Origin: Selenomonas dianae
GTDB lineage: Bacteria > Bacillota > Negativicutes > Selenomonadales > Selenomonadaceae
Direction: 5' to 3'
Assembly (NCBI RefSeq): GCF_030644225.1
Contig: NZ_CP128650.1
Location: 506,001 to 570,000 of the forward strand
Length of the DNA stretch: 64,000 nt
Under the pieces are notes generated by a model. It did no database searches. It worked only from the letters and a program-made list of their open reading frames with translations, and was not told the DNA's origin. The stretch's first letter is position 1. Each line of letters opens with the position of its first letter. The position numbers and the translations under genes were made by a program. This document shows positions 39,126-44,279 of this stretch, one piece after another.

Positions 39126-39146
39126 ATTCGGCATGAGGTGAATTTT

Positions 39147-39926
39147 ATGTCGGATATATTTCAAGGGCTGATGATACCGTTCATCGGCACAACACTCGGT
39201 GCGGGTTGCGTATTCTTTCTCAAAGGTGCGCTGAATCGCAACGTACAGCGCAGTCTGACGGGCTTCGCCGCCGGTGTGATGGTGGCGGCATCCATTTGGA
39301 GTCTTTTGATCCCTGCGATGGAGGGCGCGGCTGACATGGGGCAGTACGCCTTTGTCCCTGCGGTCGTCGGCTTTTGGGCGGGGACGCTCTTTCTGCTGCT
39401 GTTGGATCACATCATCCCGCATCTGCATATGAATGCACAAAAGGCGGAAGGACCGCACAGCCGCCTCTCACGGACGACGATGCTCGTGCTTGCTGTGACG
39501 CTGCACAACATCCCCGAGGGAATGGCGGTCGGCGCGATCTATGCGGGCTGGCTGAGTGGCAGCGAGAGCATTACCCTGGGCGCGGCACTCGCACTCTCGC
39601 TCGGCATTGCGATTCAGAACTTCCCCGAGGGCGCGATCATCTCCATGCCGCTGCGTGCGGCGGGGATGGGGAAGTGGCGTGCGTTTGGCGGCGGGGTGCT
39701 CTCGGGCGCAGTTGAGCCGATCGGCGGCGCACTCACGATTGCTGCGACGGCATTTATTGTGCCGATGCTGCCGTATGCGCTTGCGTTTGCAGCGGGTGCA
39801 ATGCTCTACGTCGTGGTGGAGGAACTGATTCCGGAGATGAGTGAGGGCGAACATTCGGATGTAGGGGTTGTTTCGTTTGGGGCGGGCTTCACGCTCATGA
39901 TGATGCTCGATGTTGCGCTCGGGTAA
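39147..39926 (+). CDS. ZIP-family divalent metal transporter
   Basis: A 259-residue protein with about eight membrane helices. TLHNIPEGMAVG (helix IV) and IQNFPEGAIISMPL (helix V) carry the paired His/Asn/Glu metal-binding residues of the ZupT/GufA branch. A short His-containing loop (DHIIPHLHMN) lies before helix IV. It imports zinc, iron or manganese. ATG 39147 has GAGGT 7 bases upstream; the in-frame GTG at 39138 overlaps that site. Confidence 0.9.
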   Translation: MSDIFQGLMIPFIGTTLGAGCVFFLKGALNRNVQRSLTGFAAGVMVAASIWSLLIPAMEGAADMGQYAFVPAVVGFWAGTLFLLLLDHIIPHLHMNAQKAEGPHSRLSRTTMLVLAVTLHNIPEGMAVGAIYAGWLSGSESITLGAALALSLGIAIQNFPEGAIISMPLRAAGMGKWRAFGGGVLSGAVEPIGGALTIAATAFIVPMLPYALAFAAGAMLYVVVEELIPEMSEGEHSDVGVVSFGAGFTLMMMLDVALG

Positions 39927-39936
39927 AAGAATACGG

Positions 39937-39973
39937 AAAAAGAGCCGCCGGTATATGCCGAGCGGCTCTTTTT
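39937..39973. terminator. Bidirectional terminator for the ZIP gene and the minus-strand sRNA
   Basis: AAAAAGAGCCGC pairs perfectly with GCGGCTCTTTTT around a 13-base loop, giving a T run in both directions. Confidence 0.9.
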
Positions 39974-40131
39974 CCTGGAAAGGGATGCGCGCAGGCCGGG
40001 AAAAACCTGCGGCTTGAGAAATGGGATGTAAGGGTTATTTGCCTTACAAGAGGAACGCAGGGAGACGTTCCTTTAGAGGGATGATCAACGGGGGAAAATG
40101 TCGGGGAGGACGTTTCTTGTTCCCCGTTGAT
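39937..40131 (-). ncRNA. Candidate structured small RNA with C-rich loops, about 195 nt
   Basis: Read on minus, an extended -10 (TGATATAAT, 40138-40146) would start RNA at about 40131, the first base of a 10-bp stem (40122-40131 with 40084-40093). Three more perfect stems follow: 40066-40072/40051-40057, 40042-40048/40027-40033 and 40006-40011/39990-39995. Then comes the terminator. Loops and linkers on this strand repeat UCCC: the apical loops are CCUCCCCG, UCUCCCUG and UUUUUCCCGG, and CAUCCC or AUCCC occurs in linkers. Such loops can pair with Shine-Dalgarno sequences, as in C-rich-loop sRNAs of Firmicutes. It matches no RNA family I know. On plus, the same loops would show many GGA motifs, as in CsrA-binding RNAs, but that strand has no promoter or good terminator. 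Confidence 0.55.
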
Positions 40132-40137
40132 GTTTGT

Positions 40138-40146
40138 ATTATATCA
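40138..40146 (-). promoter_or_regulatory. Extended -10 promoter of the candidate sRNA
   Basis: Minus strand TGATATAAT. There is no good -35, which the extended -10 can compensate for. Confidence 0.55.
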
Positions 40147-40287
40147 TATTTTGTTTGAAAATTTTGTAACCCAAGTCACACAATAGAAAAAAAGATGCAG
40201 TAATAATGATTTTTGCCGATTTTTTCGTGAACAAAGATGCCTGAAAAAAATCATAGAATATAATTGCGTTTGCCCGTACCTGCCGCA

Positions 40288-40316: not shown

Positions 40317-40337
40317 ATTGAGAAGGAGAGTACGCAG

Positions 40338-40382
40338 ATGGGTTTTGCGTATTCGGAAGGGATGCTCCCTTTGTTAGGATGA
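40338..40382 (+). CDS. Possible 14-residue leader peptide of eno
   Basis: ATG 40338 follows AAGGAG by about 9 bases and encodes MGFAYSEGMLPLLG. Its stop TGA (40380-40382) overlaps the start of the eno ribosome site GAGGAGG. The leader can fold TACGCA/TGCGTA and AAGGGA/TCCCTT stems. Translation up to the stop would place a ribosome on the eno start region, so coupling or attenuation is possible. It is too short for coding statistics. Confidence 0.4.
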   Translation: MGFAYSEGMLPLLG

Positions 40383-41699
<1,317 letters not shown>

Positions 41700-42323: not shown

Positions 42324-42455
42324 GGCAGTACCTCCTTTGATGATTCACCACAAGTATAGCACAGATCGGTGCGGACGGGGGCGATTTTCAGTCCCTTTTA
42401 GGAAATTTGTGCTATACTGAACCAATATCATATTGGATTGGATGTGAGGTGGATG

Positions 42456-44279
42456 ATGCGGAAAACGGGAAGCGCGCTGCTCGCGCTGTTCGTGATGGTA
42501 CTGGGGCTTTTCTTTCCGTCTGCGCGTGCCGAGGCAATCGACGCATGGGGGATTGCGGCGCAGGCACTCGGCGTGCTGGGGGCATATCACTCCGCACTTG
42601 GTGCAGTGCTCGCGCTCGGCAACGATGTCCATGCACAGGTGGAGAGCCGGCGGCAGGATCTTGCAGAAAATGGACGCGCACGCAACGTGCGGGATATTCA
42701 GCTCGTAGATGGGATCATGGAACGGCTCGTGCGCGATGGCGGCTATGTGCTCCGTGTGAACTCGCTGCCCTTCACATGGGCGCTCACGGACAGCCCTGTC
42801 TTTAATGCCGCCTGCTATCCGACGGACTACGTGACGATCAACCGCGGGCTCGTGCGTGGGTTGAACGGGAACGTGGATGAGCTTGCCGCCGTGCTCGGGC
42901 ACGAGATGACGCACGGCATCCGTCAGCACAGCGCACACAACTACGCGCAGGCAGCGGCGCAGTTCTACGGGATGAGCTTTCTCAACATGAATTTCGGGCT
43001 GATGGACTGGAACAAGCTCAATGCGCTTGTGGGCTACTCCGTTGCGAAGAATGTCACGCTGCCTACAGAGTACGAGGCGGATGAGGGCGGGTTTTATATC
43101 ATGACGAGCGCGGGCTTCAACCCGGGCGGCGGAGCGGCAGCGATGGCACGCATGGGCTACTATCTGACCTATGTGACGCAGGAACTTGCGGAGTATCAAG
43201 ATCCGAAGGAGAAGGATCTGCCGCAGGACGACTTCTCCGATCATCCCGCGACGGAGCGGCGCGAGGCAAAGCTCGTGGGTTATATGACGGACTACAGCGC
43301 GGGTCATGTCACCGTGCGCGACCGCAGGACGGTCTGCATCGACGGGACACCGCTCCTGACGGTGACATGGACGGATGAGGACTACGACAACAGCCCCGAG
43401 AATGCGTATCTCGTGGCAGGTGCGCTTGCCCGCGCCTTTCATGACTATGATCGTGCGGAGGACTGGCACATCGGTCTCACCGATGATGGCAGTGTGACCA
43501 TGGACGGCGACCCGCGTGTGAATGAGCTTCTTGTACATTTCCTCGCACGGGAGAAGGCGGGGGAGAGGCTGCTTACGCTTGTTCGCGATGCCTATACAGG
43601 TGAGGCGGAAAGCGGCGCACGGGAACAGCTGCGTGCCGTGGAAGAAAAGCGTGCGCAGGCGCAGGAGGCGGCGCGTGCGGAGGTGGAGAACGCCGATGCG
43701 AAGGCGATCCAAAAGATGCGTGAGAACAGCGATGCCTACAGCGACTACGGCGACAGTGTGCGTGCGCTCATGCTGATGGAACGCGTCTTTGCCGCACCGC
43801 ATGACGAGCACCGTGCGCAGAGTTACGTCATACGTGCGCGTGCCTACGCCGTGCAGGGCGATTGGGAACGCGCACGTGCGGATGCGGATCGGGGTGTTGC
43901 GGACGATCCGAAGGATGTGCTCACATGGCTGAACCGCAGCGATGTGCGGCGCATGATGGGCGACCGTGCGGGAGCGCTTTCCGATGCACGCAAGGCAATC
44001 GAGACGGATGCGAAGAATCCGTACGGCTATCTGATTGCGGCAGAACTCTCCGATGAGATGGGGAACACCGAGGAGGCGCAGGCGTATTTTAAGAAGCTCT
44101 ACGACGTCGAGCCGAAGGCACTCGGGCGCATCCCGGACGAATACCTCGAAGCCGTGGATCGGCGTGCCTATACAAAGAGGATGAAGGAAAAGGAGAAGGC
44201 GCGTGCGGAGCGCGAGAAGAACATCCGCGAAAAACGGAACGAGAAACATCGTTCCGCAGAGGAGGGCGATGCGGATTGA
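42456..44279 (+). CDS. M48-family metallopeptidase with TPR repeats
   Basis: About 607 residues. A cleaved signal peptide is likely (1-25, ending PSARAEA). The zinc protease domain has HEMTH at 149-153 and the third ligand region EYEADEGGFYIM about 50 residues later. A long Glu/Arg/Ala-rich coiled segment follows (near ERLLTLVRDAYTGE onward), then TPR-like repeats (AQSYVIRARAYAVQGDWERA, ADDPKDVLTWLNRSDVRRMM, AYLIAAELSDEMG-type units). The charged C-terminus is Lys/Glu-rich. BepA/YfgC-type proteins with this layout act in outer-membrane protein quality control, which suits a diderm cell. ATG 42456 is best placed after GAGG; ATG 42453 and a TTG at 42438 are alternatives. Confidence 0.85.
   Translation: MRKTGSALLALFVMVLGLFFPSARAEAIDAWGIAAQALGVLGAYHSALGAVLALGNDVHAQVESRRQDLAENGRARNVRDIQLVDGIMERLVRDGGYVLRVNSLPFTWALTDSPVFNAACYPTDYVTINRGLVRGLNGNVDELAAVLGHEMTHGIRQHSAHNYAQAAAQFYGMSFLNMNFGLMDWNKLNALVGYSVAKNVTLPTEYEADEGGFYIMTSAGFNPGGGAAAMARMGYYLTYVTQELAEYQDPKEKDLPQDDFSDHPATERREAKLVGYMTDYSAGHVTVRDRRTVCIDGTPLLTVTWTDEDYDNSPENAYLVAGALARAFHDYDRAEDWHIGLTDDGSVTMDGDPRVNELLVHFLAREKAGERLLTLVRDAYTGEAESGAREQLRAVEEKRAQAQEAARAEVENADAKAIQKMRENSDAYSDYGDSVRALMLMERVFAAPHDEHRAQSYVIRARAYAVQGDWERARADADRGVADDPKDVLTWLNRSDVRRMMGDRAGALSDARKAIETDAKNPYGYLIAAELSDEMGNTEEAQAYFKKLYDVEPKALGRIPDEYLEAVDRRAYTKRMKEKEKARAEREKNIREKRNEKHRSAEEGDAD

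Follow-up and report, generated by a model that had tools for sequence, protein, structure and literature searches.

The enterobacterial small RNA (sRNA) FnrS is transcribed under an activator of the CRP/FNR family and contributes an RNA arm to an anaerobic regulon, and the titrating RNAs CsrB and RsmZ carry many copies of one short motif distributed over their loops and linkers. In several other sRNAs, namely LhrC, RNAIII, RsaE, SprD, and FsrA, UCCC is described as the seed that pairs with the Shine-Dalgarno (SD) region of mRNAs (PMC4132741, PMC9217828). The RsaE/RoxS RNAs of Staphylococcus and Bacillus, whose C-rich seeds are of this kind, are portrayed as being linked to the redox and nitric-oxide response in B. 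subtilis, with RsaE carrying two UCCCC motifs in the account given (PMC9217828). In the LhrC1-5 RNAs of Listeria, the UCCC sites that pair with the SD region are placed in one loop, in a linker, and in the loop of the terminator (PMC4132741), and the published account has LhrC induced by cell envelope stress via LisRK. The sRNA described here resembles RsaE/RoxS in its C-rich motifs, the putative seeds for SD regions, but carries 4–7 UCCC motifs, against two in RsaE and three UCCC sites in the account of LhrC.

The sRNA gene lies between a ZIP metal transporter gene and eno in the window, by which we mean the whole 64,000-nt stretch of Selenomonas dianae DNA that was analysed (Table 1). A preliminary description of this locus had placed four perfect stems and a perfect terminator in the intergenic region, on a minus-strand RNA of about 195 nt preceded by an extended -10 box. 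Both flanking genes were confirmed by Pfam, the box is present with the RNA downstream of it, and the RNA measures 195–196 nt when counted from the inferred start. The four hairpins and the terminator were likewise borne out, with a minimum free energy (MFE) of -76.9 kcal/mol against -43.9 ± 3.65 kcal/mol for 200 dinucleotide shuffles (z = -9.0), none of which equalled it. Some details need correction: stem 1 contains inner pairs, and hairpin 4 and the inner part of the terminator are bulged. In the MFE structure, the last linker may also fold on itself into a weak hairpin of 3 bp. A simple pattern scan listed neither the terminator, because its loop exceeds the 3–8 nt allowed, nor the -10 box together with a -35 box (the only minus-strand output was GTTACA-16-TATGAT). 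We noted that the terminator is palindromic, with A5 before the stem and U5 after it, and it may therefore be common to the sRNA and the convergent ZIP gene, ending both transcripts.

Table 1. Features of the sRNA locus, in coordinates of the window.
Feature	Position	Strand	Basis or remark
ZIP metal transporter gene	39138..39926	+	convergent neighbour; Pfam PF02535
Intrinsic terminator, 12-bp stem, U5	39937..39973	-	sequence and fold; rumen-clade counterpart covaries
Small RNA, ~196 nt, apparently non-coding	39937..40132	-	match to covariance model R1, positions 1-196 (the window sequence is one of those used to build R1)
Linker AUCCCUUUCCA	39976..39986	-	weak 3-bp pairing in MFE; rumen-clade counterpart AUCCCUUCC
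Hairpin 4, UUUUUCCC in loop	39987..40013	-	fold and genus alignment
Linker UCCCAUUUCUCAA, unpaired, common to oral and rumen clades	40014..40026	-	alignments, pattern scan
Hairpin 3, loop without UCCC	40027..40048	-	fold and genus alignment
Hairpin 2, UCCC in loop	40051..40072	-	fold and genus alignment
Linker CAUCCCUCUAA, unpaired	40073..40083	-	fold
Hairpin 1, 10-bp outer stem; loop with CGUCCUCCCCGACAU (40112-40098) and UUUUCCCCC	40084..40131	-	fold
Extended -10 box TGATATAAT	40138..40146	-	sequence, genus alignment; clear -35 not seen
CRP/FNR-type operator (predicted) TGTGACTTGGGTTACA	40165..40180	-	centre about -41.5 from inferred start
Enolase gene (eno)	40395..41699	+	divergent neighbour; Pfam PF00113, PF03952

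None of the 4227 Rfam families matched the window, or the loci L103, L105, and L110, at its gathering score, in agreement with the earlier statement that no family with this layout was known. Below gathering, 11 matches were listed (E 0.0081 to 7.6). Those on the minus strand included rli60 (20.9 bits against a gathering score of 60), RsaE (17.5 against 79), RcsR1 (16.6 against 60), and IsrM (8.4 against 376), the first three with E of 0.97 or more; with the RsaE score given and its E of 2.7, the RNA falls outside the RsaE/RoxS family (RF01820). Two matches on the plus strand, RcsR1 (E 0.0081) and Thr_leader (E 0.05), had lower E and reach to the ZIP 3′ end and the possibly shared terminator. 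In limited literature searches, judged by title and the start of the abstract, we found no sRNA of Selenomonas or Negativicutes (including Veillonella) and no publication on the zip-eno sRNA among the matches listed. The sRNA family is new, and its functional kind, the UCCC sRNA, is already known: as in the Firmicutes class of C-rich, SD-blocking sRNAs, the UCCC motifs lie mostly unpaired in loops and linkers. If the reading is true, this is a comparatively supported sRNA family for Selenomonas and, within the same limited searches, for Negativicutes.

A DNA search found the element in all 14 genomes of the genus (hereafter the oral set), as a single copy aside from self-matches of the palindromic terminator. 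In the genus alignment (A3), the unpaired stretches are among the most conserved, and parts of stem 1 and the terminator are variable; CGUCCUCCCCGACAU and CAUCCCUCU, the latter in the linker after hairpin 1, are invariant in the 14 oral copies, and UCCCAUUUCUCAA is kept in 13 of them, with one change in genome G004. Covariance model R1 matched 18 of 189 genomes of the family, comprising the 14 oral genomes, three of a second genus (G070, G136, and G138), and G029, which we rejected as a homolog as its match covers the terminator only. Shorter homologs are found in the S. ruminantium group (the second Selenomonas clade), where the rumen RNA is ~160 nt long, and in a third genus.

Public genomes were scanned with a pattern made of the two linkers common to both clades, joined, which returned 36 stretches. 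Thirty belong to Selenomonas or Centipeda, nine of oral type (including S. artemidis, S. noxia, S. flueggei, and C. periodontii) and 21 of rumen type (mainly S. ruminantium). The remaining six (L099, L108, L111, L114, L117, and L130) are without the palindrome described below and, by eye, without the RNA layout, and were put down to chance. Alignment A4 and covariance model R2 were built from 19 of the 21 rumen-type sequences, L116 and L120 being omitted as identical to L112 over the RNA. Although R2 contains zero oral sequences, the sRNA was its top-scoring match at each of the 14 oral loci (E 7e-8 to 9e-4 in 44,886 bases). Over 380 genomes of the class, R2 matched 42, namely 12 of the 14 oral genomes, 20 of the S. 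ruminantium genus, six of the third genus, and four outside the family (G258, G312, G351, and G364). On reading, the RNA layout is absent from these last four, which are not homologs; the RNA family is therefore seen, under strict search filters, in three genera only.

Covariation, which the preliminary description had named as a check, is present in both alignments when compared to shuffled and slid controls. In A4, changes on both sides occur at 14 of 29 pairs, in 64 cells versus 18.7 ± 3.3 in shuffles (0 of 500 as high) and 9–16 in slid controls. The signal is smaller in A3 because the oral set is closer: both-side changes affect 6 of 54 pairs, a number reached by 4 of 500 shuffles, and 16 cells versus 6.5 ± 2.0 shuffled (0 of 500) and 0–8 slid, with 2 of the 10 outer pairs of oral hairpin 1 changed on both sides. 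The number of pair types showed no excess over shuffles in A4 or A3. The minus strand, preferred from the outset, is also favoured by the kind of exchange seen, as G-U pairs can form only in the minus-strand RNA and A-C cells become pairs only in the plus-strand RNA: G-U exceeds A-C by 73:7 and 51:6 in the two sets, ratios carrying some bias because the minus strand served to derive the pairs. The -10 box and the palindrome are conserved on that side as well, and this promoter and the intrinsic terminator are conserved together with the RNA. We regard it as very probable that the element is a real RNA gene, and hold with the same high confidence that the functional RNA lies on the minus strand.

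It is correspondingly very improbable that the element is a CsrA-titrating RNA read from the plus strand, with GGGA(UG) in its loops and linkers. The reverse complement of CAUCCC is GGGAUG, which the CsrA site consensus resembles, and a stable fold is predicted for the plus strand too (z = -5.6). However, besides the G-U to A-C asymmetry, the -10 box and palindrome sit upstream of the minus-strand RNA, and the T run of the rumen-clade terminators is at the 3′ side of the minus strand; on these three grounds, we set the plus-strand sponge aside. The pattern scan also gave no promoter-like plus-strand site near 39930–39960, at the 5′ end of such an RNA, in keeping with the earlier remark that this strand lacks a promoter. 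CsrB and RsmZ have GGA in the loops of the transcribed strand, whereas the loops here carry UCCC on the supported strand, the likeness to these RNAs lying in the repetition of a short motif.

The neighbourhood bears on whether the element might act in cis on an adjoining gene. It is intergenic, its terminator is perhaps common to ZIP, and the neighbourhood is partly kept: at the three rumen loci that were read, the gene from which the sRNA is directed away encodes a HEMTH motif like that of zinc proteases (a name given on sequence alone), and a gene similar to it lies past eno in the window (42438–44279). However, the RNA is directed away from eno and toward the ZIP 3′ end, it comes with a -10 box and a terminator of its own, ZIP was not seen beside it in two oral genomes (L018 and L021), and neither ZIP nor eno adjoins it at the three rumen loci, all of which makes a cis-acting element highly unlikely. 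A small mRNA for a short peptide is harder still to credit: while single members hold open reading frames (ORFs; 14 a.a. in 2 of 14 oral copies, up to 29 a.a. in some rumen copies), no ORF is conserved across the members of the oral and rumen sets, and a coding RNA was rejected on this ground.

In the window copy, apical loops 1, 2, and 4 and three linkers contain UCCC, in line with the first description of three such loops in four. The oral RNAs (n = 14) contain 5–7 UCCC (mean 6.6), with a mean unpaired probability of 0.86 versus 0.41 for all bases, and the rumen RNAs (n = 21) contain 4–7 (mean 6.5), with 0.96 versus 0.48 in a set that L113 and L122 entered with wrong ends (4 and 6 UCCC once corrected for A4). 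The least exposed motifs were those of L122 (0.66, with the start mis-set in that set) and G006 (0.78). The window copy has seven UCCC versus 3.0 ± 1.26 in 300 shuffles (maximum 7), and shuffles of a second, rumen member have 3.4 ± 1.23. Exposure exceeded that of shuffles in the rumen member tested (0.3% as high) but was unexceptional in the window copy, at 0.80, a value reached by 17% of its own shuffles. Conservation of the motifs, another check proposed earlier, was found in both clades: loops and linkers are kept within the genus, and in the rumen clade, where no counterpart of oral hairpins 3 and 4 was seen, UCCC is displayed on different stems, in loop 1, the loop of hairpin 2, and, in many members, the terminator loop, as in LhrC. 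This amounts to a testable selection pattern, in which exposed UCCC is retained and the scaffold of stems is rebuilt between clades.

A feature overlooked in the preliminary description is a CRP/FNR-type palindrome upstream of the -10 box, its centre 35 bp upstream of the box end, which is a class II activator position. With zero mismatches, TGTGACNNNNGTYACA occurs at two places in the window's genome, the sRNA promoter and the fnr-narK intergenic region. All 13 readable oral sRNA loci have the palindrome, spaced from the -10 box by N21 in 12 and N22 in one, and in the 14th genome (G007), which has an assembly gap at the locus, a like promoter is found beyond the gap. The same layout, palindrome-N21-TATAAT/TATACT, precedes narK in all 13 genomes with Fnr; the narK product scored 305 bits with the NarU and 254 bits with the NarK family model, both under their cut-offs, and narK in the other genomes was identified from its sequence. 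The CRP protein encoded beside narK in the window's genome (P0001) has cNMP_binding and HTH_Crp_2 domains and ends in CX2CX4C as in Bacillus Fnr, and we take it to be Fnr. A scan of the 14 genomes for the layout with up to two mismatches gave 87 matches (some being one site read both ways) versus one for the reversed pattern, and its 19 exact matches were eight sRNA and 11 narK promoters. Weaker members of the layout were seen before four further genes. Three of these belong to the window's genome and encode NarG (TIGR01580, above cut-off), a Mop/TOBE protein, and a cupin; the fourth, in G005, encodes a protein like thioredoxin reductase. With narK, these genes (G000:C1 1650133, 2171548, 2301826, and 1499514; G005:C1 642037) form a small regulon with the palindrome-N21 -10 arrangement, which all but narK show at 1–2 mismatches. 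It is very likely that the sRNA is under CRP/FNR-type control, a point of difference from RoxS, which is controlled by Rex.

Three candidate regulators were considered. Fnr is present in 13 of 14 oral but only one of three rumen genomes, an HcpR2-like protein (RPSLS helix, Pro after the specificity Arg) in all 14 oral and all three rumen genomes, and a third CRP-like protein with the helix TAREVV in 13 of 14 oral genomes by pattern (that of G005 deviates) and all three rumen genomes. The sRNA half-sites read TGTRACYY. At position 4, the 28 oral half-sites divide into 18 with G and 10 with A, and 39 of the 42 rumen half-sites have A; for the four rumen loci lacking a clear left half, the best window was counted. 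A pyrimidine occupies position 7 in all 28 oral and in 41 of 42 rumen half-sites, versus 10 of 26 for narK and 0 of 24 for the 12 hcp sites compared. Overall, the rumen sites take the form GTAAC-N4-GTTAC and the oral sites GTGAC-N4-GTYAC. The rumen form is that of the hcp promoter, where GTAAC-N4-GTTAC occurs in all 14 genomes (N21 in 12, N22 in two) and is reported as the HcpR2 motif (PMC1274295). Of the 21 rumen-type sites, 17 agree with the HcpR2 operator at 11 or 12 of its 12 positions, but every one of the 14 oral sRNA sites carries GTGAC in one or both halves. Only one half-site is retained in four of the 21 rumen-type loci. The Fnr-type operator used for comparison was TGTGA-N6-TCACA at about -41.5.

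The palindrome thus appears compatible with Fnr, the HcpR-like protein, or the third CRP-like protein, and singles out none of them. Genome G009 lacks Fnr at E ≤ 1e-20, yet retains the palindrome at the sRNA and at the Mop/TOBE-like gene (L167), which suggests that another regulator may read these sites there. Control by Fnr alone was dropped in view of G009, the presence of Fnr in one of three rumen genomes, and the half-site differences. A third CRP-like regulator, or a change of regulator between the clades, is possible. Judging from promoter anatomy, the predicted regulator class (CRP/FNR) and the activator position are well supported.

In the mechanism we propose, a CRP/FNR-superfamily protein would bind the palindrome, centred at about -41.5, and recruit RNA polymerase, and the promoter with its extended -10 box would fire in step with genes for nitrate respiration and nitrogen-oxide defence. 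The resulting RNA (~195 nt in oral and ~160 nt in rumen members) would serve as a scaffold of stems displaying 4–7 mostly unpaired UCCC motifs, and these, as in known UCCC sRNAs, would pair with the G-rich SD regions of several mRNAs and keep these from being translated. UCCC is a documented SD-covering seed of Gram-positive sRNAs and RsaE/RoxS is tied to nitric oxide, therefore a like action is most likely here. By this analogy, repression of mRNAs through UCCC is rather likely, and the sRNA would most likely serve a nitrogen-oxide or anaerobic regulon as its RNA arm. The analogy with FnrS extends to the activator family and the regulon arm, the differences being another phylum, the UCCC array, and the lack of an Rfam match. 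Taken as a whole, the element is probably a stand-alone, trans-acting UCCC sRNA that blocks SD regions and is activated by a CRP/FNR-type protein together with nitrate and nitrogen-oxide genes. If true, RNA control would be tied, through a testable regulator class, to the reduction of nitrate in oral and rumen bacteria.

Neither the search with the linker complement nor the duplexes with the eno and hcp leaders gave a convincing target. With zero mismatches in the 14 genomes, the 13-nt linker complement was found at the sRNA itself (13 of 14) and at one place in G004, and the places with one mismatch were mostly intragenic (contexts at 17 of 30 loci). It stands before a gene start in G004 with zero mismatches and in G007 with one; this gene is presumably mnmE. 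Duplexes of the sRNA with eno leaders did not surpass shuffles in 12 of the 14 genomes, and in the other two (G007 and G009) at most three of 60 shuffled leaders were as good; with hcp leaders, the real duplex was never among the best 3 of 60, with 4 to 39 shuffles as good.

The result is one that a multivalent sponge would also explain, in which, as with CsrB or a sponge RNA, the partner of the UCCC repeats would be a protein or a G-rich sRNA and not mRNAs. Several near-identical exposed motifs on a variable scaffold fit such a role, although we know of no bacterial UCCC-binding protein. The UCCCC motifs of RsaE are described as pairing with the G-rich sRNA RsaI (PMC9217828). However, conservation exceeds UCCC, with UCCCAUUUCUCAA kept in both clades and CGUCCUCCCCGACAU in the oral clade, which is more than a motif binder should need, and we consider a sponge unlikely. 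We put forward only tentatively, as a doubtful extension, a general, polyvalent anti-SD array in which UCCC, repeated four to seven times on a scaffold free to re-evolve, would let a single molecule bind several mRNAs simultaneously (or a cognate G-rich RNA or protein) and so brake translation under a nitrogen-oxide or anaerobic switch of the CRP/FNR family; if true, this would join the layout of CsrB to the pairing chemistry of RsaE. The SD-blocking sRNA set out above is the reading we retain.

Some members of the family and one neighbouring leader deserve separate mention. In four S. ruminantium-type genomes, second and weaker matches (42–47 bits) were noted (G112, L240; G104, L241; G088, L242; and G134, L243). 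No CRP palindrome was seen by eye at these second RNAs, which have UCCC in two hairpin loops and a linker, as well as a -10-like box, and look like paralogs. In G091 of the third genus (L244), R2 matches the 5′ half only, other sequence replacing the 3′ half after the start of hairpin 2, possibly through natural truncation or an assembly join. G064 contains two identical copies with identical flanks on one contig (L245 and L246), the second near the contig end, possibly an assembly duplicate. Finally, many of the 14 eno leaders (40330–40395 in the window) contain a GGGATGC...TCCC hairpin, from which several genomes deviate, G001, G002, and G006 among them, and the SD region GAGGAGGAA is present in all 14.
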